This document shows, piece after piece, positions 48,939-63,896 of a DNA stretch of 64,000 bases. Positions within the stretch are counted from its first letter, which is position 1; each line of letters starts with the position of its first letter. The position numbers were made by a program, and so were the translations under genes. A model generated the notes under the pieces. That model made no database searches, had not been told where the DNA came from, and was given only the letters and a program-made list of their open reading frames with translations. Source of the DNA: a virus; IMG/VR virus record IMGVR_UViG_3300008448_012183, positions 1-64,000 of that record. The stretch is one strand, 5' to 3'.

Positions 48939-48969
48939 GTTACACAACAAAAAAGATCTATGTTAGATT

Positions 48970-48994
48970 ACCCACTAGCAGTAGTGGGTTTTTT
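48970..48994 (+). terminator. Intrinsic (rho-independent) terminator
   Basis: An 8-bp stem ACCCACTA (48970-48977) with TAGTGGGT (48982-48989), loop GCAG, is followed directly by a run of T (48989-48994). This is the clearest terminator in the window. It closes the RuvC-primase-48504 transcript and lies only 14 bases upstream of the recombination-nuclease start, so that gene needs its own promoter or read-through. Confidence 0.85.
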
Positions 48995-49007
48995 ATTAGG
49001 AAAAAAC

Positions 49008-52000
49008 ATGAAAATAGCACATTTAGCTGATACACACATCAAAACTTTGCAAGATCACCAAATTTATCGTGATGTTTTTGAGCAAATTTACCAAAAACTA
49101 AGAGAAGAAAGGGTCAATTATATCGTCCATTGTGGCGATATTGCTCATTCAAAGACGCAAATCAGCCCAGAATTTGTAGAAATGGCTAGCGATTTCTTCA
49201 AAAATCTTGCTTCTATCGCTCCAACGGTAATAATTCTTGGTAATCACGATGGAAACCTTAAAAATTCAGATAGGCAAGACGCTATTTCACCAATTATTAA
49301 CGCATTGGAGCTTAATAACATCTTTTTATTGAAAGATTCTGGTGAATTTGAGCTTAATAGGGATATTACTCTGAATGTTTTGAGCATTTTTGATGAAGAG
49401 CATTGGACAAAACCAACAAATCCAGAAAAAATCAATATTGCCCTTTATCATGGATGTATCGCTGGCTGTAAAACCGATACAGGTTATACAATGACAAAGG
49501 GAGATCATGACGTAAGCATCTTTGAAGGTCATGATTTTGCTTTTCTAGGCGATATTCACACAACCCACCAGATTATGGATGGTGAAGGTAAGGTTAGATA
49601 TCCCGGTTCTACTGTTCAACAGAACTTTGCAGAAACAAACGATAAGGGTTTCTTGATTTGGGATATTAAATCAAAGGAAAGCTTTAGCTGCAAGCACGTT
49701 TCAGTCAAAAACCCGCATCCATTTGTCACAATTGAATTAGATAGCAACGGAAACGTTCCAGACGTAGAGATTGAGTCAGGATCTCGCGTTCGTATTTTCA
49801 CAGATAAAAATATTACGCTTGATAAAGTAAAAAAAGCAAAAGATGCGATTAAAAATCGTTTCAGCCCTATGAGTATAACTTACTTAAACAAGCCAAATTC
49901 AGCTGTTTTTGACCAGAGTATCGTTTCAGAGATCGTTTCACAAAAAAGAAATCTTAGAGATGTGTCATTTCAAGAAAAATTAATTGAAGATTTTTTGAAA
50001 GATTATAAAATCAGCAGTGAGTTAAAAACAAAAGTATTTGAATTAAACAAAAAATACAATTCTTCAATACAAGAAGGAGAAGATATCTCAAGAAATATTC
50101 ACTGGAAGCTAAAGCGTTTTGAATGGGATAATTTATTTAATTATGGTGATGGTAATAGCATCAATTTTAGTGACCTAAATGGTGTTATTGGTATTTTTGG
50201 TAAAAATTATAGCGGTAAATCAAGTGTTATAGACGGTATTCTCTATACCCTGTTTAACACCACCAGTAAAAACAACAGAAAGAATTTAAATGTTATTAAT
50301 CAAAATCTACAAAAAGGTAGAGGAAAACTAGAAATCGAAATTAACGGTGAAGACTATGTTGTTGAGCGTATTTCTGAAAAATATACTAAAAAAACAAAAG
50401 GTGTTGAAATAACAGAAGCCAAAACTGATGTTTCTTTTACAAGCGATTCAGAGTCTATGAACGGTCTTGACCGCAACGACACAGATAAAAACATTAGAAA
50501 ATATTTTGGTACTGTAGATGACTTCTTCCTAACATCTATGGCTACACAATTTGGCTATCTTTCATTTGTCTCAGAGGGTTCAACAAATCGTAAACAAATA
50601 TTAGCTAAATTCCTTGATCTAGAGTCTTTTGAGAAAAAATTTAAGTTAGCTAAAGAAGATAGTGCAGAAATTAAGGCTCTAATTAAGCGTCTTGAGGTTA
50701 ATAACAACTACGATGAGTTAATTAAGCAAGCCGAGATTAACGTTTCTAACAGCAAACTAGAAGCAGAAGAAAAGTCATTTCTTATTAAAGAGCTATTATC
50801 AGATTCAGTAAAGATCAATGAACAATTACAAAAGGTATCTGATTCTCTAAAAAATATTCCTTCTGAAATTATTGATTATAAATCAACTAGTGAAACTATC
50901 ACTAGACTGAAATTGGCTTTACAAAACATTAAAGAAGAGAACATTAAATTTGAGGAGGAAAAGAAAAAACTTCATACAATTATCGATAAATCTAATGAAT
51001 TTCTTTCATTATTTGATAATGAGCAACTTAAAAAAGATAATGACGAATTAGACTCTTTAAATAAAAAGATTGTACCTCTAGAAAGAGAAATCTCAGCCCT
51101 ATCAACACAGTTAAAGAATGCTAAACATAAATTAGAACTTCTAGAAAGCGTTCCTTGTGGAGATTCATTCCCAAGTTGTAAATTTATTAAAGATGCATTT
51201 GAATATAGAAATCTTTATCCTTCTTTGAATACTGAGCATGTACAAAAAAATAATCAGCTAAATGAATTAAATGCTAAATATGATGAATTAGATCAAAAAT
51301 TAGCTGATTTGCTTAATAAACAAAGCAAAATCACTCAAAAAAAGCTTGAAAGTGAAAAACTACTATCAACTATTCAGATAAGTATTGAGAGAAATAATCT
51401 TTCTATCGAAAAAAGAGCTAAACAATTAGAAGAATACGAACAAAAAATTAAAACATACGAAGAAAATAAAGAAGCAATTGAAAATTATATTGAATTACAA
51501 GAAAGTAAGAAGAAACTTCAACAAAAAATTTCTGTAACAAGCGGAGATATTGAAAAAGCTAGACATGAAATGAATGTTGCTAATGTTTCTTATGGTTCTT
51601 TCTTGAAAGAAGTTGAAACATTGAAAAAACAAAAAAGCGATTTAGAAAAATTACGCGATGAATATACAGCTTATGAGCTATATCAAAAATGTATGCATCC
51701 AAGCGGTATTTCTTATGAAATTATTAAACAAAAACTACCAGAAATCAATTCAGAAATAGCAAAAATACTGAACAACATAGTAGATTTTAATGTAATGTTA
51801 GAGAATGATGATGATAAATTAGACATAATTATCAAGCATCATAATATGGAACCTAGACCATTAGAAATGGGCAGCGGAGCAGAAAAAACATTAGCTTCAA
51901 TTGCAATCCGACTTGCTCTTTTAAATGTTACCTCTTTACCAGTGTCAGATCTATTTATTATGGATGAACCGGGAACTGCTCTTGATGAAACAAACTTGCA

Positions 52001-52142
52001 AGGATTTGTTAAAATTTTAGATATGATCAAAAGTTATTTTAAGACAGTACTAATTATTTCACATCTTGATGTTTTAAAAGAATGTGTAGATGGTCAAATA
52101 ATCATTAACAAAAAAGGCGATTATGCCTTTATTGATAACTAA
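49008..52142 (+). CDS. Fused Mre11-Rad50 (SbcD-SbcC, T4 gp47-gp46) recombination nuclease
   Basis: One chain of 1044 residues holds both subunits of the recombination nuclease. Residues 1-340 are the phosphoesterase: MKIAHLADTHI, VHCGDIAHSK, LGNHDGNL, LYHGCI and FLGDIHTTH give the metal ligands. Residues 365-1044 are the Rad50/SbcC ATPase: Walker A GIFGKNYSGKSS near 395-406, a long coiled coil (about 540-880), signature MGSGAEKTLAS near 954, Walker B LFIMDEPG near 981. The hook region near 715 has a Cys-x6-Cys (PCGDSFPSCK) instead of CxxC. The family resects DNA ends for recombination-dependent replication. I chose ATG 49008 after AGGA; an ATG at 48960 would run through the terminator hairpin. 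T4 keeps the two subunits as separate genes. Confidence 0.9.
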   Translation: MKIAHLADTHIKTLQDHQIYRDVFEQIYQKLREERVNYIVHCGDIAHSKTQISPEFVEMASDFFKNLASIAPTVIILGNHDGNLKNSDRQDAISPIINALELNNIFLLKDSGEFELNRDITLNVLSIFDEEHWTKPTNPEKINIALYHGCIAGCKTDTGYTMTKGDHDVSIFEGHDFAFLGDIHTTHQIMDGEGKVRYPGSTVQQNFAETNDKGFLIWDIKSKESFSCKHVSVKNPHPFVTIELDSNGNVPDVEIESGSRVRIFTDKNITLDKVKKAKDAIKNRFSPMSITYLNKPNSAVFDQSIVSEIVSQKRNLRDVSFQEKLIEDFLKDYKISSELKTKVFELNKKYNSSIQEGEDISRNIHWKLKRFEWDNLFNYGDGNSINFSDLNGVIGIFGKNYSGKSSVIDGILYTLFNTTSKNNRKNLNVINQNLQKGRGKLEIEINGEDYVVERISEKYTKKTKGVEITEAKTDVSFTSDSESMNGLDRNDTDKNIRKYFGTVDDFFLTSMATQFGYLSFVSEGSTNRKQILAKFLDLESFEKKFKLAKEDSAEIKALIKRLEVNNNYDELIKQAEINVSNSKLEAEEKSFLIKELLSDSVKINEQLQKVSDSLKNIPSEIIDYKSTSETITRLKLALQNIKEENIKFEEEKKKLHTIIDKSNEFLSLFDNEQLKKDNDELDSLNKKIVPLEREISALSTQLKNAKHKLELLESVPCGDSFPSCKFIKDAFEYRNLYPSLNTEHVQKNNQLNELNAKYDELDQKLADLLNKQSKITQKKLESEKLLSTIQISIERNNLSIEKRAKQLEEYEQKIKTYEENKEAIENYIELQESKKKLQQKISVTSGDIEKARHEMNVANVSYGSFLKEVETLKKQKSDLEKLRDEYTAYELYQKCMHPSGISYEIIKQKLPEINSEIAKILNNIVDFNVMLENDDDKLDIIIKHHNMEPRPLEMGSGAEKTLASIAIRLALLNVTSLPVSDLFIMDEPGTALDETNLQGFVKILDMIKSYFKTVLIISHLDVLKECVDGQIIINKKGDYAFIDN

Positions 52143-55390: not shown

Positions 55391-56956
55391 ATGAAACTTA
55401 CAAAAGAGGAAATAAAAAGCGAGATTATTAAATGCGGAAAAGATCCGAATTATTTTCTTAATAATTATGCAAAAATTTCTCACCCAGATAAAGGGATCAT
55501 ACCATTCAAGACTTACGATTTTCAAAAAGACTTATTAAACGATTTCCACGATCACAGATTTACGATAATTTTAAAAGCCCGACAGCTTGGTATTTCAACC
55601 ATAGTGTCGGGCTATATTGCTTGGATGCTGCTTTTCTATAAAGAAAAGAATGTCCTTGTTATGGCAACCAAGCTTAACACTTCTATTGAAATAGTTGAAA
55701 AAGTTAAAGATATTATCCGTTCAGTCCCAGACTGGATGACGATTACAACTATTTCGGTTGATAACAAAACAAAATTAGAATTATCAAACGGCTCAAAGAT
55801 TCAAGGCGTGCCAACCAGCAAAGATGCTGGTCGTGGTCAGGCTCTTTCTTTATTGGTTATTGACGAGGCTGCACACGTTGAGGACATGGATGATCTCTGG
55901 ACAGGTTTGTATCCTACTATTTCAACTGGTGGTCGCTGTATAGCTCTTTCAACGCCTAATGGCGTTGGTAATTGGTTTCATAAAACTTATGTTGAGAGTA
56001 GCGAAAACAAAAATAATTTCCATAGCGTTTCATTGCCTTGGACTGTGCATCCAGAGCGCGGAGAAGAATGGTTCAAAAATGAAACAAAAAATTTGTCCAA
56101 ACGACAGATTGCACAGGAATATGAATGTAATTTCAATGCATCTGGTGAAACCGTAATCAACGGTGATGATATCCAAACATTAAAAAAACTTGTAAGCGAG
56201 CCAAAGTATAAAACTTATATAGACAGAAACTATCATATCTGGAAAGAATTTAGTAGTGATGGTTCCTACCTTATATCGGCAGATGTTGCCCGTGGTGATG
56301 GTAAAGATTATTCAGTATTCCATGTTATAAACGTTAAAACTATGGAACAAGTCGCAGAGTATCAAGGTAAAATTGATCTTGATTCATTTGCCAAATTACT
56401 TACATCAACTGGTAGTGAATATGGAAATTGCATGATAGTCGTAGAAAATAACAACATTGGATATGCAATATTAACAAAGCTAATAGAAAGTGGCTATAGG
56501 AATATTTATTATTCAAGTAAAACTGGCGAAACAAATATGGCTTATGCTGCCTATAATTCAAATTCTGTTCCCGGTTTTTCAACAACAATGAAAACAAGAC
56601 CATTGATTATTGCAAAACTTGAAGAGTTTATTAGAAATAAAGCAATAAAGATCAATTCTTCAAGACTAATTAATGAATTAGATACATTTGTTTGGATAAA
56701 TGGAAGACCAGAAGCACAAAAAGGTTATAACGATGATTTAGTTATGTCTATGGGAATTGCTTGCTGGATAAGAGATACTGTTTTAATTAACAATCAAAGG
56801 GATTTAGAATATCATAGAGCATTCTTGAGCGCAATAGGAAAATCAGCAAGCCAACTAGATACATCAGTTAGTGGAATGTCTCAATATGAAAAAAATCAAA
56901 GAATGGACGCTCAGAAAAAACAATATCTAGCAAATGTTTGGGTATTAAAAGGATAA
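55391..56956 (+). CDS. Large terminase, T4 gp17-like
   Basis: The 521-residue packaging motor has both activities. ATPase: TIILKARQLGIST (residues 58-70), the deviant Walker A of terminases, and LLVIDEAAHVEDM (about 154-166) as Walker B plus catalytic glutamate; ALSTPNGVGNWF is motif III. Nuclease (RNase H fold): YLISADVARGDGKDYSV (aspartate near 298), CMIVVENNNIGYAIL and GYNDDLVMSMGIA (aspartates near 447). gp17 docks on the portal and pumps DNA into the prohead, then cuts it. The portal gene follows four bases downstream, with no sheath or tube genes between as in T4. Confidence 0.95.
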   Translation: MKLTKEEIKSEIIKCGKDPNYFLNNYAKISHPDKGIIPFKTYDFQKDLLNDFHDHRFTIILKARQLGISTIVSGYIAWMLLFYKEKNVLVMATKLNTSIEIVEKVKDIIRSVPDWMTITTISVDNKTKLELSNGSKIQGVPTSKDAGRGQALSLLVIDEAAHVEDMDDLWTGLYPTISTGGRCIALSTPNGVGNWFHKTYVESSENKNNFHSVSLPWTVHPERGEEWFKNETKNLSKRQIAQEYECNFNASGETVINGDDIQTLKKLVSEPKYKTYIDRNYHIWKEFSSDGSYLISADVARGDGKDYSVFHVINVKTMEQVAEYQGKIDLDSFAKLLTSTGSEYGNCMIVVENNNIGYAILTKLIESGYRNIYYSSKTGETNMAYAAYNSNSVPGFSTTMKTRPLIIAKLEEFIRNKAIKINSSRLINELDTFVWINGRPEAQKGYNDDLVMSMGIACWIRDTVLINNQRDLEYHRAFLSAIGKSASQLDTSVSGMSQYEKNQRMDAQKKQYLANVWVLKG

Positions 56957-56960
56957 ATAA

Positions 56961-58952
56961 ATGGCAGATAAGAAAAGAAATCCAAAACCAGAAGATTCGC
57001 CGCTTTTTAGAAGCTTAACACGGTTATTTTCTGGTCCTATAACAAGTTTTAGATCCCAAGCAGTTCAAAGATATCGCAGAAAAGATATTGATCATCTTAA
57101 ATTTACATCTGCAAGCGGTCAAACATTTAAAAAGAAATCATATAACCCATTTGAGGCGATTCAATCTAATGTTATGATGAATCAAAGTCGCGCAGAGCGT
57201 TATAGCGATTTCGATCAAATGGAATTCATGCCTGAAATTGCTTCTACGATGGATATTTATGCTGATGAAATGACAACAAGCAATCAATTTAGGAATTTAT
57301 TGCACATTGAATCATCAAATAATGAAATAAAAGAGATTTTACACGTTCTTTATTACGACGTTTTAAATATTGAACAAAATTTGTATGGTTGGTGCCGTAC
57401 AATGTGCAAATTTGGTGATTTTTTCTTGTATCTAGACATAAAAGAAAATGAAGGAATCAGCAAGGTACTTGGGTTGCCCTCACCAGAAGTTGAAAGGTTA
57501 GAAGGTGAAGATGAAAGCAATCCAAGCTATGTTCAATTTCAGTGGAACAGCGGTGGTATCACATTTGAAAACTGGCAAATTGCACATTTCCGAGTATTAG
57601 GACAAGATAAATACGCTCCATACGGCACCAGCATCTTAGAGCCAGCCAGACGTATTTGGCGTCAACTACAATTACTAGAAGATGCCATGATGGCGTACCG
57701 CATTGTTCGTGCCCCTGATCGTCGCATATTTTATATCGACATTGGTAATATTCCTCCAGAGGAAGTCGAACAATATATGCAAAAAGTTATAACACAAATG
57801 AAGCGTAACCAAATCGTTGATCCGCTAACTGGTCGTGTCGATTTACGTTATAACCCAATGAGCATCGATGAAGATTACTTTATTCCAGTTAGGGCTGGTC
57901 AATCCTCTACAAAAATCGATACATTGCAAGGTGGTACATTTGCTAGCGCGATTGATGACGTTAAATATTTGCGGGATAAGCTCTTTAGCGCTTTAAAAGT
58001 GCCTCAGTCTTATCTATCCCGTGGTGAAAATGCTACTGAAGATAAAAGTACCCTTGCACAAAAAGACATCCGTTTTGCAAGAACAATTCAAAGATTACAA
58101 AGAATTGTTATAGCCGAATTAGAAAAGATTGGAATGATTCATCTTTATACCCTTGGCTACAGAAACGATGATATTTTAAAATTTAGATTGATCCTAAACA
58201 ATCCATCAAAGATCGCAGAATTGCAAGAGTTAGAACACATGAAGTCAAAAGTTGACTTAATGACAGCTGCTAAAGATACAGGATTATCAAGAAGATGGAT
58301 GTTTAAAAATATCTTTGGCTTCTCAGATGAAGAGTTTATCAGGAATCAAAGAGATCTATTTTACGATAAATCAATTGCTCAACAATTAGAGGGACAACAA
58401 CCAGAAGCTGGTGCTGGAGGTGGTGGAAGTCCCGGTCCTTTGGCCGGTGCAGGTGCAGGAACAGAAGCCGCTCCACCTCCTCCTATGGAAACACCTACTC
58501 CTGATACTACGGCGGCTCCACCCCCAGAAGCAGGATCAGAACCCGCTACAGGAGAAGAAAATATTCTATTAGCGAAACCAGAAGGCGGCGGTGAAGCACC
58601 ACCACCAGCAAAACGTGAAGATGACGGTACAGTAATTTATAAAAATGGTCAAAGATTCACGCCAAATTCTAATGGTAAATCATATAAACTAAAAAAAACA
58701 GACGATAGATACAAGGGAGCTAGACACAGAAGTATAATTTCAATGTCTGGTGATTCTTATGGCAAGAATACAAAAAGAAATGTATTTAAAGGTAAATCCG
58801 TTCTAGATACTTATGCTGCTGGCATCATTGCGGAAAACCAAGAAGTTGATAATTACGAAAGAGATGAAAAATTATTATCAGAAATGCAAGATAAATTAAA
58901 ATCCTTGTCTAAGGCTTTAAACATTAAAGAGGAAAAGGAAAATGGAAAGTAA
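56961..58952 (+). CDS. Portal protein, T4 gp20-like, with low-complexity C-terminal insert
   Basis: The 663-residue chain carries gp20 blocks: SRAERYSDFDQMEFMPEIASTM then DIYADEMT, LEPARRIWRQLQLLEDAMM, YRIVRAPDRRIFYIDIGNIPP, and RDKLFSALKVPQSYLSRGE. Twelve copies form the ring at the head vertex through which DNA passes and where terminase and neck bind. Residues 478-555 are a Gly/Pro/Ala-rich insert (GAGGGGSPGPLAGAGAG...) that separates the core from a basic C-terminal part (KSYKLKKTDDRYKGARHRS). The insert is G+C-rich compared with its surroundings. It overlaps the next gene by 11 bases. Confidence 0.94.
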   Translation: MADKKRNPKPEDSPLFRSLTRLFSGPITSFRSQAVQRYRRKDIDHLKFTSASGQTFKKKSYNPFEAIQSNVMMNQSRAERYSDFDQMEFMPEIASTMDIYADEMTTSNQFRNLLHIESSNNEIKEILHVLYYDVLNIEQNLYGWCRTMCKFGDFFLYLDIKENEGISKVLGLPSPEVERLEGEDESNPSYVQFQWNSGGITFENWQIAHFRVLGQDKYAPYGTSILEPARRIWRQLQLLEDAMMAYRIVRAPDRRIFYIDIGNIPPEEVEQYMQKVITQMKRNQIVDPLTGRVDLRYNPMSIDEDYFIPVRAGQSSTKIDTLQGGTFASAIDDVKYLRDKLFSALKVPQSYLSRGENATEDKSTLAQKDIRFARTIQRLQRIVIAELEKIGMIHLYTLGYRNDDILKFRLILNNPSKIAELQELEHMKSKVDLMTAAKDTGLSRRWMFKNIFGFSDEEFIRNQRDLFYDKSIAQQLEGQQPEAGAGGGGSPGPLAGAGAGTEAAPPPPMETPTPDTTAAPPPEAGSEPATGEENILLAKPEGGGEAPPPAKREDDGTVIYKNGQRFTPNSNGKSYKLKKTDDRYKGARHRSIISMSGDSYGKNTKRNVFKGKSVLDTYAAGIIAENQEVDNYERDEKLLSEMQDKLKSLSKALNIKEEKENGK

Positions 58953-60313: not shown

Positions 60314-61522
60314 ATGAAATTTACACAAGATTATGTCAAGAGAATGATAAGAGAAGAAACAAAAAAATTATTAAAAGAAGATACCGCTTCTGATCTAGAA
60401 GCGCAAGCCGCAGCGACCGGCGCAGGCAAAAATCAACCAAAGCAAACAGGTTCTCAACATGCTAGAGATTTTCAAGCGGCTCAAGATCTTTTTAAAATTG
60501 TTCAAACCGGACAGTTGACTCGGGAACAAGCAAATGCGGTTGTAGAAGCATATAGGGCAATAAATGCTAAAAAACCTTTGCCTCAAAATGCCGTACGGAC
60601 AATTAAAGAATTAGGAGGCTCTATACCATCTACAAATATTGCAAAACCGGTTGCTCCTACTGCTGCTCCTACTGCTGCTAAACCAGTAGCTGCGGTTGGG
60701 CCTTCTGTAAATTCTACGGTTGTTCACAGGGAAGCACCGGGACAAAAATTTACAGTTCTTGAAAAAAGAGGAAATTTTGTTCTTTTAAAAGATGTAAAAG
60801 GTGAAACTTTTCAAGCTGAGTTGTCCGACTTGACAGTTGTTCAAGAATCCCGCATTAGAAGAATTGTCAAAGAAGAAATTTTAAAAGAAATGAAAGTAAG
60901 AATTAACAGCTCATTAGACGAAGAAACAATTACCTTAGATGATGACGAAGAACCAGTAACACCAAGAAGAAAATCATTTATACCAGAACCAAAGCCAACT
61001 AAAGTTGATCCTACTGTATTTACCGGGACAAGCCCAACAGTTTTAAAAGGCGATGAAATTGGAGTTAAGGATATTGTTCCTAAAGGAAGTACTGTTAAAA
61101 ACAGCCCAATTCCCGGTAAGCAATCTGGTGATCTTAATGTTTCTGGTAAATATTCTGGCATGACTGATCCTTTTAGAAGTAGAGGTGCTCAATTTCAAAC
61201 GCGCACGCAGCCAACAACACCAAAAAAGACTATTAAAATAACTCCAAAACCAGAACCTCAACCGATCATTGGAAAAATTAAAAATTACGATCCAATTGGA
61301 AATGAAACTGACGACCAATATGCTCAAGTTCCTAGACCGTTTGAGGCGCAACCAGCACGCGATCCATTAGCCGATCCTTATGCTTCAGCAACATCGCCAA
61401 CTACACCACGACCCCGTCCTCGTCCTCGTCCTAATACTGCATCCAAGAATGATCAATTTGATCCTGATGATTTGAATAATTTAGCAACGATGAGCAAAAT
61501 AATTCAAAAAATTGAAAATTAA
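60314..61522 (+). CDS. Candidate prohead core/internal protein with capsid-targeting-like leader
   Basis: The 402-residue protein opens MKFTQDYVKRMIREETKKLL, then KED; the helix ends in an L-x-E triplet (LKE, residues 20-22), the T4 gp21-type cleavage pattern. A second copy of the helix lies inside the chain at residues 177-196 (QESRIRRIVKEEILKEMK). Between them are Ala/Gln-rich and Pro/Ala-rich linkers and a small beta segment (KFTVLEKRGNFVLLKDVKG, about 145-163) that resembles an SH3-like or KOW-like barrel. The C-terminal half is proline-rich and disordered, with PRPRPRPRP near residue 370. No enzyme motif. Head-core or internal-protein role is inferred from leader and position. Confidence 0.6.
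   Translation: MKFTQDYVKRMIREETKKLLKEDTASDLEAQAAATGAGKNQPKQTGSQHARDFQAAQDLFKIVQTGQLTREQANAVVEAYRAINAKKPLPQNAVRTIKELGGSIPSTNIAKPVAPTAAPTAAKPVAAVGPSVNSTVVHREAPGQKFTVLEKRGNFVLLKDVKGETFQAELSDLTVVQESRIRRIVKEEILKEMKVRINSSLDEETITLDDDEEPVTPRRKSFIPEPKPTKVDPTVFTGTSPTVLKGDEIGVKDIVPKGSTVKNSPIPGKQSGDLNVSGKYSGMTDPFRSRGAQFQTRTQPTTPKKTIKITPKPEPQPIIGKIKNYDPIGNETDDQYAQVPRPFEAQPARDPLADPYASATSPTTPRPRPRPRPNTASKNDQFDPDDLNNLATMSKIIQKIEN
60653..60676 (+). repeat. 12-bp tandem repeat GCTCCTACTGCT (x2)
   Basis: Two exact copies at 60653-60664 and 60665-60676 encode a duplicated Ala-Pro-Thr-Ala in the linker of the 60314 protein. Confidence 0.9.
61415..61432 (+). repeat. CGTCCT hexamer repeat (x3)
   Basis: Three exact CGTCCT copies encode the Arg-Pro repeats near the C terminus of the 60314 protein. 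The tract is far more G+C-rich than its surroundings. Confidence 0.9.
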
Positions 61523-61524
61523 TA

Positions 61525-61818
61525 ATGCAACTTTTAACTTTTATATTAGCCTGTTATGGCATGACAATGATTCTTGTTTATAGCAAGATTTTTGAACAAA
61601 CAAGAAATTATTTGAAATCATTTAACAGCGAAATGCTTTCATACATGATTAAATGTTGTATGTGCATGGGTTTTTGGGTTGGTGTGGTAAATGCAACTTG
61701 TTTTTTTGATTTAGAAACAAATTGTCTTATGGCTGGTTGTATTTCATCCGGTACAACATATTTTATCAGCAGATTAGTAGATGATGACGGAATTCTTATT
61801 AAAATGAAAAATGGGTAA
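61525..61818 (+). CDS. Small membrane protein with CCMCMGFWVG motif (DUF1360-like)
   Basis: The 97-residue product has a hydrophobic N terminus (LLTFILACYGMTMILVYSKIF), then KCCMCMGFWVGVVNATCFF (C44, C45, C47 and the GFWVG turn) and a third hydrophobic segment around LMAGCISSGTTYFISRLV. A cysteine-rich motif followed by GFWxG inside a membrane segment is typical of DUF1360-like small membrane proteins of phages; role unknown. It lies between two head-region genes, two bases after the 60314 stop, and is followed by a promoter-like box. Confidence 0.72.
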   Translation: MQLLTFILACYGMTMILVYSKIFEQTRNYLKSFNSEMLSYMIKCCMCMGFWVGVVNATCFFDLETNCLMAGCISSGTTYFISRLVDDDGILIKMKNG

Positions 61819-61827
61819 CTATTTATA
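61819..61827 (+). promoter_or_regulatory. Candidate late-promoter box CTATTTATA before the 23-codon ORF
   Basis: CTATTTATA starts at the base after the previous stop and lies six bases upstream of GGAGG, the ribosome binding site of the 23-codon ORF. It is the third intergenic copy of CTATTTAT in the window. Confidence 0.4.
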
Positions 61828-61843
61828 GAAATGGAGGTATGCT

Positions 61844-61915
61844 ATGCGTACACAAGTAACTTATGTTCGTAGATATATGCTACAACCTGTTCGCCGTTGC
61901 TGCAACGGTAGCTAA
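61844..61915 (+). CDS. 23-residue basic peptide ORF
   Basis: A 23-codon ORF, MRTQVTYVRRYMLQPVRRCC then NGS, follows GGAGG (61833-61837) with ideal spacing. The peptide has six arginines, no lysine and no acidic residue, and an RRCC pair. Its arginine codons are CGT/CGC plus one AGA, whereas neighbouring genes mainly use AGA. A 6-bp inverted repeat CCGTTG/CAACGG lies within its last codons, and its stop is two bases before the strong hairpin at 61917. It may be a real micro-protein or a leader peptide. No homologue is known to me. Confidence 0.5.
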   Translation: MRTQVTYVRRYMLQPVRRCCNGS

Positions 61916-61916
61916 A

Positions 61917-61952
61917 TTTGGCCCTCTAGGACAAAAATCTTAGAGGGCCGAA
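61917..61952 (+). terminator. Strong hairpin after the 23-codon ORF, terminator or processing signal
   Basis: Fifteen consecutive pairs (two of them G-U) form between 61917-61931 and 61938-61952, with core GGCCCTCTA/TAGAGGGCC and loop CAAAAA. It is the most stable RNA structure I see in the window. Only an A+T-rich stretch (AATAAATTTTAATATT) follows rather than an immediate T run, so it could be a weak intrinsic terminator, an mRNA stabiliser or a processing site. Confidence 0.6.
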
Positions 61953-61980
61953 AATAAATTTTAATATTAGGAAAATTAAT

Positions 61981-63291
61981 ATGAGACTAACAGAAAATTA
62001 TTTGAAGAATGTTATAAAAAGCAAATTAAAATCTTTGTTAAGCGAAGCGCCTTTAACTAAAATGAGCGTTGACGATTTTCGCAAACTACCAAACGCAGAT
62101 ACATCAATAGAAGGACCACAACTTCGTGATCGTCCAAGAATTCCAAATCCAGACGGTACTATTCCACCTCTTCCAAGGGGAACTGGTCCCGGTCGGGCAA
62201 TAAGTACAGCAACGCCAGATCCAAAGCAAGCAGAAGATGCAGCAAGGAAACAAAGACTTTTAAATACTTATCTTGAAAAAGCAAAAGCTGGAACTTTATC
62301 TGATGACGAAAAGCAAACTCTTTTATCTGGTCAATCAGTTTTTGGAGAATTACCGCCAGAGCAAAAAGCAATTCTTTCACCACCCCCTGCACCCCAAAAA
62401 CCAAAAGATAAAAGTGGTATGACAAAAGAGGCGACAGAAGTAACAAAAGAAATTCAACAATTATTAATAGATTCTGGTGTTTCTCTTAGTAAAGGAGCTA
62501 ATGGTTTATATAATCAAGAAACAGCAAATGCAGTAAATAAATGGTTTGCCGAGCATCCAGATGTTCAAAAACCTCGCGGTGTTAAATCAAATTTCTTAGC
62601 AACTATAAAACAATTTAGAGATGCTATTAAATCTGCGGCTCCACAACCAAATGATAAAGTTAAAGATATTCAAGCTTTGTTAAATTATTTAGAGAGTGAA
62701 ACTGCTGAAGGGTATAAAACAAGTCCATTACTAAAAATTACTGGTATTCTAGATGAAAAAACAATAGAAATTGCTAAAAAACATGTCGATGATAAATCCT
62801 CTTTGGATTCATTACAAGGCGATGATTTATTTAATAAAATTTATGATGATCTTCTTGGGGGCGACAGTTGGAGCTGGTATAAAGAATATGGAGAACCTAT
62901 AAAATTTATTACAAAACCGGATTATGTTTGGGATTATGTTTGGGGAGATGGAGATAAATATGAAGCAGAAAAGCAACCACCAGAAGAACCGCCAACTGCT
63001 GATAATTATTTAAATAGTCCTTATTACAAAAAAAATTCAGAAGGTATTTTTGCTGGTGAAGTTGATTTAACGCCTGAACAAAGAAAAATTTTAGATGCAA
63101 GAATGCAAAAAAGAGCTTTTGATAGAGCCAGCCCAGTAAATCAAGCAATGACTAGATACAACGATGCTCGAAAAATGAGACAAGGACTATCACTTAAAGA
63201 ATCTAGAATTTTCAAAGAATCATATATAAAAGAAATGATTAGGGAAGAATTCTTGAAAGAAATTATTGAACAGGAATTGAGAAAAATATAA
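61981..63291 (+). CDS. Head-region protein with targeting-like leader and two PG-binding-like repeats
   Basis: The 436-residue protein begins MRLTENYLKNVIKSKLKSLL, then SEAP, a helix ending in L-S-E (residues 20-22) that aligns with the start of the 60314 protein. A third copy of the helix is at the C terminus (residues 412-431, KESYIKEMIREEFLKEII). The middle has a Pro-rich linker (residues 30-75) and two segments like PG_binding_1 domains: EIQQLLIDSGVSLSKGANGLYNQETANAVNKWF split over 155-187, and VKDIQALLNYLE...ITGILDEKTIEIAKKH over 226-270. It lies three bases before the prohead protease. A packaged protein that acts on the cell wall after ejection is one reading (inference). Confidence 0.6.
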   Translation: MRLTENYLKNVIKSKLKSLLSEAPLTKMSVDDFRKLPNADTSIEGPQLRDRPRIPNPDGTIPPLPRGTGPGRAISTATPDPKQAEDAARKQRLLNTYLEKAKAGTLSDDEKQTLLSGQSVFGELPPEQKAILSPPPAPQKPKDKSGMTKEATEVTKEIQQLLIDSGVSLSKGANGLYNQETANAVNKWFAEHPDVQKPRGVKSNFLATIKQFRDAIKSAAPQPNDKVKDIQALLNYLESETAEGYKTSPLLKITGILDEKTIEIAKKHVDDKSSLDSLQGDDLFNKIYDDLLGGDSWSWYKEYGEPIKFITKPDYVWDYVWGDGDKYEAEKQPPEEPPTADNYLNSPYYKKNSEGIFAGEVDLTPEQRKILDARMQKRAFDRASPVNQAMTRYNDARKMRQGLSLKESRIFKESYIKEMIREEFLKEIIEQELRKI

Positions 63292-63293
63292 AA

Positions 63294-63896
63294 ATGTCAC
63301 AAGAGCTTTTAAGAGAATATTATGAATTATGCGAAGGTGGTGTCTGCCGTGATCTATTAACGGAAGAAGAAAAACGCTTTGTATCAAATGGTGGTTTGAT
63401 GCTATCCGGTGTGATGCAAAAGTGCAATAAAGAAAACGGTAACGGTAGAATATACCCAAGAGAAATATTGCAACGCGAAGTTGATAACTACAAAAAATTA
63501 GTTATGGATCGTCGGGCATTGGGTGAATTAGACCACCCAGATGATTCTGTTATAAATCTAAAAAATGTTTCACACATGGTAACAGATATCTGGTGGGATG
63601 GCGATGGAGTTATGGGAAAAGTTCGCGTACTAGACACCCCATCAGGTAATATCTTGAAAAACCTTGTTCATGGTGGAGTTAAATTGGGCATTTCATCAAG
63701 AGGTCTTGGATCAACAAAAAAAGATAGCGGTAAAACAATAGTGCAAGAAGATTTTCAATTGATTTGTTTTGATTTCGTTCAAGAACCAAGCACTCCCGGT
63801 GCATTTATGATTAAAGAAAGCAAAACACGCGATGTGAACAAGATTTGGTCTAAAGCAGATCGCTTAAATAGATTATTAAACGATATCGTTAAATAG
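63294..63896 (+). CDS. Prohead core protease, T4 gp21-like
   Basis: The 200-residue serine protease has the family order: LMLSGVMQKCNKENGNGRIYP (split at residues 35-55), RALGELDHPDD with catalytic H81, and GVKLGISSRGLGST with the catalytic serine at 134 or 135. gp21 degrades the prohead scaffold and trims capsid and internal proteins, cutting after (L/I)-x-E. The chain carries DLLTEEEKRF at residues 20-29, a possible self-cleavage site that would release the N-terminal segment. In T4 the gene is followed by scaffold (22) and major capsid (23) genes; here another virion gene begins 13 bases downstream. Confidence 0.93.
   Translation: MSQELLREYYELCEGGVCRDLLTEEEKRFVSNGGLMLSGVMQKCNKENGNGRIYPREILQREVDNYKKLVMDRRALGELDHPDDSVINLKNVSHMVTDIWWDGDGVMGKVRVLDTPSGNILKNLVHGGVKLGISSRGLGSTKKDSGKTIVQEDFQLICFDFVQEPSTPGAFMIKESKTRDVNKIWSKADRLNRLLNDIVK

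Follow-up and report, generated by a model that had tools for sequence, protein, structure and literature searches.

Why would a virus place the same short helix at the start of two different proteins, and again inside one of them and at the far end of the other? The question comes from IMG/VR record IMGVR_UViG_3300008448_012183, of which positions 1 to 64,000 (the window: 64 kb from an uncultured virus, including a T4-type head module) contain two genes, named here by their first positions, 60314 and 61981, that share a 20-residue amphipathic motif. The repeat is probably a family of capsid-targeting propeptides, similar in action to the capsid-targeting sequence (CTS) of phage T4 but unrelated to it in sequence, with a large set of cargo proteins and sometimes in tandem. 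In the route that I infer, through docking, cleavage, packaging and injection, the N-terminal amphipathic helix (MKITKxQLKxIIKEEL, residues 1 to about 16) would attach the protein to the prohead core, the protease gp21 would then cut after L/I-x-E at the end of the leader (about residues 20-27), and the mature protein would be left free inside the head. Many small proteins that are otherwise unrelated would thereby receive the same leader, as the internal proteins of T4 do on a more modest scale. Each end of the 61981 protein has a leader with a cut site inside it, so gp21 would take off both peptides, as it does in T4 Alt, and the presence of the same helix at both ends suggests that both dock.

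The four copies had been listed in a first-pass annotation of the window, and the translations agree with that list letter for letter (Table 1). The two N-terminal copies score E=1.5e-10 (60314) and 3.3e-9 (61981) against a profile built with both included, and 13.3 and 7.6 bits, respectively, against a model of 477 leaders, values reached by none of 2000 shuffles; they are far beyond chance. The internal copy of the 60314 protein is supported, and the C-terminal copy of the 61981 protein modestly so. Since the two proteins, once their N-termini are removed, align no better than chance (252/1000 shuffles), these internal copies rest on the profile and on recurrence in relatives. There leader and domain fuse in tandem, which makes the second copies of the window, weak alone, credible.

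The motif had at first been noticed in two genes. It is present in both, but its scale was underestimated, as hundreds of genes carry it and one 289-kb record has 27 copies, the most found, in rows of small genes. The loci fetched, 2.7 Mb in all and from fragmentary records, contain 576 distinct copies (80 loci were obtained through gp21 relatives). The consensus of the copies is MKITKxQLKxIIKEELxxxLxE, 533 of them lie on a start methionine, and many of those that do not sit on GTG or TTG codons. A profile of 21 leaders (A1) matches 19 of 19 longer records tried, with 1 to 10 copies each, and all 24 records that a degenerate DNA pattern selected; E-values reach 1e-12 per record. The full-length tagged proteins have a median length of 115 residues, and 140 of them, when aligned, have in common only MKITKxQLKQIIKEEL, the first 16 residues. 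As with a CTS, a short N-terminal leader is thus attached to proteins with unrelated mature parts. Third codon positions of the leader vary freely (for example, six leucine codons at position 8 and three isoleucine codons at position 12), which indicates that selection acts on the protein.

The carriers are uncultured T4-like and jumbo phages with a gp21 protease. The exact degenerate pattern occurs in at least 120 stretches of IMG/VR, and in 257 billion bases of bacterial and archaeal genomes it occurs in five stretches on three contigs, one of which has its own gp21 and portal, while a second belongs to a binned genome with gp21 and portal on another contig. The leader is virtually absent from cellular genomes, and the spread through cellular non-phage proteins that the first-pass annotation had counted as a refutation was looked for and not found. 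Among six isolates tested, T4, VH7D, S-SM2, DSL-LC03 and Mel-JY01 have no leader match, and Flavobacterium phage immuto 2-6A (host Flavobacterium sp. LMO8), the sole positive, has three weak and divergent ones, in gp080, gp114 and the 102886 gene. An uncultured 484-kb phage (LR756508.1) contains 21 copies; it also gave the only match, a weak one, in a tblastn search of INPHARED with the motif, where 22-residue queries have low sensitivity. Among the papers searched, none described the leader or contained the motif string.

If the leader is removed, where would it be cut? T4 gp21 cuts after L/I-x-E (PMC9026906), and the expectation that both N-terminal copies end in this pattern holds, although LKE|D of the 60314 protein (the bar marks the predicted cut) does not have the usual A, G or S after the cut. 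Across 459 non-redundant leaders, [LI]-x-E lies within residues 15-30 in 64.3% (1.73x shuffles, z 14), as against 17.9% (1.31x shuffles) of cleaned control genes from the same loci. At residues 31-46 the tagged proteins fall to 0.87x shuffles and the controls stand at 1.37x, so that the excess is absent in tagged proteins there. Leaders without an early site have [LI]-x-E more frequently at residues 24-36 (z 2.8 and 3.4), and a glutamate at +1 or +3 from L/I, or D or Q replacing it, shows no enrichment in leaders. That the leader ends in a gp21 site is therefore true of the family as an enrichment, and both window proteins have such a site. A first control with uncleaned genes was discarded: it gave a nearly equal excess over shuffles, leader-like genes were found among the controls, and their removal gave the 1.31x cited above. 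For this reason the cut-site claim rests on position and absolute rate and not on the shuffle ratio alone.

In the 61981 protein, [LIM]-x-E-[AGS] occurs only twice, at LSE|A and LKE|S, and cuts there would take off exactly its two leader copies; to treat them as meaningful is a post hoc choice, though one in line with the T4 rule. A cut at LKE|S is predicted to free a 29-residue C-terminal peptide. In the leader family beside gp21, the glutamate of (L/I)-x-E is among five invariant residues (11 sequences), and all 27 gp23 sequences listed for this clade have L-x-E around residues 56-61, not far from the T4 cut at 65.

Removal of leader-like genes from the controls brought to light two other leaders that recur in the same gene clusters, MKxLxENWxxFLxE (34 proteins), the end of which resembles QEFIAE of the T4 CTS, and MAIRKNKKFIDPRYFMDEKxxxLxE (MAIRKNKKFIDPRYFMDEK; 24 proteins). 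In loci L110, L174, L235, L250 and others these two likewise end near L-x-E. Ten of the 58 proteins with the other two leader types have a mature part homologous to proteins of the first (MKITK) class, so leaders are swapped. The clearest case lies in loci L218 and L199, whose mature parts are 88.7% identical over 62 residues behind unrelated leaders, the identity beginning right after LSE and VLE (LSE|ATDP, VLE|ATDP). Furthermore, internal copies in relatives often precede a domain that elsewhere follows an N-terminal leader, the matches beginning between residues 1 and 9 past the leader. Leader and domain thus form a unit that can be fused in tandem, and the most natural reading of internal copies, including that at residue 177 of the 60314 protein, is that tagged modules have been fused at these points. 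A tiny domain, NIYKWCPxGSKCxPEKKKTKWWKGR (L128, L144, L169, L210), occurs alone behind a leader or as the last module of longer tagged proteins.

The leader also keeps company with gp21. Of 24 records chosen by motif alone, 15 contain gp21 (PF03420). Six of the other nine are without a portal match, two have a portal only at or near a contig end, and the ninth is a binned genome that fell outside the portal test; consequently, no record known to have a complete head module is without gp21. A gp21-type (S77) protease is thus encoded in the same genome in the window and in every tested record known to have a complete head module. A gp21 gene is also present in the 484-kb phage, with rows of tagged genes directly upstream of it. 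Within 10 kb of gp21, nearly all tagged starts fall either in the gp20-gp21-gp22 gap or 7-10 kb upstream, before gp17. In the window, the 60314 and 61981 genes lie between gp20 and gp21, the slot of gp67 and gp68 in T4. The gp21-like protease gene reported next door is borne out by matches to PF03420 and phrog_207; its score against Pfam S77 (111.8 bits, cut-off 27) places it in Peptidase S77. Directly downstream of gp21 in many loci (e.g. L043 10603-11058) is a core family, MKKxELKxxIKPLxKEC...VLxEEG, the N terminus of which forms an amphipathic helix; all 33 distinct sequences have [LI]-x-E in residues 18-28. It is possibly a prohead core protein, and possibly the dock or ancestor of the leader. 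In the 484-kb phage (L298 5981-7705), gp21 is interrupted in one reading frame by an insert of about 335 residues that looks like an intein.

The first-pass annotation had suggested a capsid-targeting or scaffold-docking module used at both termini. Cutting of the leader by gp21 has good in-silico support from the L/I-x-E enrichment, the E|A junction, the link with gp21 and the gp67/gp68 slot, and the C-terminal copy is bounded by LKE|S, whereas delivery to the head and docking are what I infer. Several observations weigh against this interpretation. L/I-x-E is short and enriched in the background too, with a mild excess in control genes from these loci (1.3-1.4x, at both positions), and 36% of leaders lack [LI]-x-E in residues 15-30. 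AlphaFold models are of low confidence (pLDDT 43 for the 61981 product, 53.5 for the family neighbouring gp21), with helices at the leader. A putative late promoter, considered as a mark of tagged genes, precedes 8.3% of them and 5.6% of their neighbours, too small a difference. Finally, kinship with the T4 CTS (MKTYQEFIAEA) was looked for and not found, as profile A1 finds nothing in the T4 genome at E<=0.1; the leader is for this reason described as a CTS analogue and not filed as a member.

Could the helix instead stay on the protein for good, as a docking module for scaffold, protease or portal to which L-x-E simply belongs? Strict conservation only in the first 16 residues, and the leaders without an early site, would suit such a module, yet it seems unlikely, because L/I-x-E appears at several registers, and later where the early site is absent, because near-identical mature proteins start exactly at E|A behind unrelated leaders, and because the only two such sites of the 61981 protein flank both copies. 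A tag that docks accessory gene products on a partner outside the head (transcription or replication machinery, or a host factor) would account for the many tagged genes outside the head module in long records and for cargo domains of almost wholly unknown kind; it sits poorly with the gp21 link, the position in the gp20-gp21 gap and the L/I-x-E pattern, and no well-known replication enzyme is among the 140 tagged proteins, so I consider it improbable. The tandem, modular genes, which often begin with the motif, might also bring to mind a DNA or RNA element at gene starts (a recombination hot spot, translation enhancer or promoter) that encodes the peptide incidentally. Third-position freedom at conserved residues disfavours such an element, as do the internal and C-terminal copies, and its probability is very small. 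As for chance likeness among lysine- and glutamate-rich amphipathic helices, composition is of low complexity and 10 of 2000 shuffles reach the copy at residue 412. However, the per-record E-values, recurrence in every record tested and lack of a match in five of the six isolates leave it next to no probability, and for the N-terminal copies the shuffles refute it.

Returning to the capsid-targeting propeptide, it may be part of something broader, an address code in which at least three interchangeable leader types (MKITK..., MKxLxENWxxFLxE and MAIRKNKKFIDPRYF...) that end near a gp21 site mark dozens of head-cargo proteins for packaging in environmental T4-like and jumbo phages, and in which tagged genes fuse into polyproteins jointed by leaders with cut sites. 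I regard this extension as tentative, with the case for it falling just short of the case against. Were it true, sequence alone would be enough to list the injected proteins. Phage internal proteins that are packed and injected are hard to recognise because their mature parts resemble nothing, and those of T4 include a restriction-enzyme inhibitor and one enzyme that modifies the RNA polymerase of the host. With a leader recognisable in the sequence, candidate injected proteins, hundreds of them of unknown function, could be listed for a large group of uncultured aquatic phages, foreign proteins could be tagged for loading into such heads, and the reason for the cutting of T4 Alt at both ends would become testable.

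What the cargo might be is seen only in outline. Pfam and PHROG scans left nearly all of the 140 tagged proteins as unknowns. In alignment A2, an L,D-transpeptidase YkuD domain (E=2.6e-20) occurs in one tagged protein and PG_binding_1 in two, hinting at peptidoglycan-directed cargo. In the window, neither the 60314 nor the 61981 protein matched a PHROG or Pfam head family; the Pfam scan found a weak SH3_3-like stretch at residues 129-164 of the former (E=0.005) and a weak PG_binding_1-like stretch in the middle of the latter (E=0.0075), both below the cut-off.

Table 1. Head-module genes, leader copies and predicted cut sites in the window.
Feature	Position	Strand	Basis or remark
gp17-type terminase large subunit	55391..56956	+	phrog_2 E=1.6e-57
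gp20-type portal	56961..58952	+	phrog_213 E=1.3e-74
402-aa protein: N-terminal leader, internal leader copy, proline-rich tail	60314..61522	+	
Leader copy 1, residues 4-23 of 60314 protein, TQDYVKRMIREETKKLLKED	60323..60382	+	profile, shuffles
LKE|D, predicted gp21-type site, residues 20-23 of 60314 protein	60371..60382	+	L/I-x-E rule, PMC9026906
Internal copy, residues 177-196 of 60314 protein, QESRIRRIVKEEILKEMKVR	60842..60901	+	6.1 bits, 0/2000 shuffles
LKE|M (190-193) and LDE|E (201-204) of 60314 protein, at or just after internal copy	60881..60925	+	
97-aa gene	starts 61525		between 60314 and 61981 genes
436-aa protein, leader copy at both ends	61981..63291	+	directly upstream of gp21
Leader copy 2, residues 4-23 of 61981 protein, TENYLKNVIKSKLKSLLSEA	61990..62049	+	profile, shuffles
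LSE|A, predicted gp21 site, residues 20-23 of 61981 protein	62038..62049	+	
LKE|S, predicted gp21 site, residues 405-408 of 61981 protein	63193..63204	+	
C-terminal copy, residues 412-431 of 61981 protein, KESYIKEMIREEFLKEIIEQ	63214..63273	+	3.0 bits, 10/2000 shuffles
gp21-type prohead protease	63294..63896	+	PF03420 Peptidase_S77 E=3.8e-32; phrog_207 E=2.3e-57

Two conserved unknowns complete the gene order between the portal and the 60314 gene. The sequence ACTATTTAT, which lies at window positions 61818-61826 and, in L004-L017, upstream of the sheath and gp22 genes, has the look of the clade's late promoter; its core, CTATTTA, precedes the tail sheath gene in 9 of 9 loci and gp22 in 9 of 14, with a strand bias of 325 to 77. 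Just upstream of the 61981 gene or of gp21 there is also an unannotated micro-ORF of about 20-37 codons (window 61844-61915, + strand; also L012 9872, L016 9880, L021 3777 and L258 19243) with the near-invariant end (W/Y)MLQPVRRCC(K/N/S)GS before the stop. It exists in 21 distinct versions at 36 places, its codon changes are synonymous, and it has no INPHARED match; in the window it is preceded by ACTATTTAT and GGAGGT and followed by a hairpin at 61920-61949. Elsewhere in the window (48960-52142), a single 1060-aa ORF that starts like a metallophosphatase and ends like an SMC/ABC-type ATPase seems to be a fusion of the T4 gp47 and gp46 nuclease subunits.

How, then, does the leader compare with known systems? 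In T4, ten N-terminal residues take internal proteins into the core and are then removed (PMC9026906), and the T4-type CTS is the sole conserved part of diverse internal defence proteins (PMC3012670). The likeness to the CTS of IPI, IPII and IPIII (MKTYQEFIAE|A) lies in a short leader on unrelated small proteins that ends in L/I-x-E. However, the T4 CTS spans 10-19 residues as against about 20-27 for the MKITK leader, and T4 has three internal proteins, compared with the 27 copies that a single record can hold here, plus tandem fused copies. The gp67 and gp68 proteins of T4 resemble the window proteins in their slot and in having L/I-x-E sites, but they are of 80 and 141 aa, as against 402 and 436 aa, further conserved genes share the slot here, and PHROG and Pfam scans found no sequence match between the two pairs. 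The head proteins of SPN3US and phiKZ likewise have propeptides that a prohead protease (gp245) removes from packaged and ejected proteins (PMC10052503), yet there the rule is A-x-E and most propeptides are 111-254 residues long. A parallel to the 61981 protein is T4 Alt, which gp21 cuts at both termini (ITE-6 and LTE-619; PMC5694885), so the earlier suggestion that use at both ends would be a distinct design overstated the novelty of the processing. Removable peptides at both ends are predicted for the 61981 protein as well; unlike Alt, it has no ADP-ribosyltransferase domain in PHROG and Pfam scans, and both of its end peptides hold the same leader helix.

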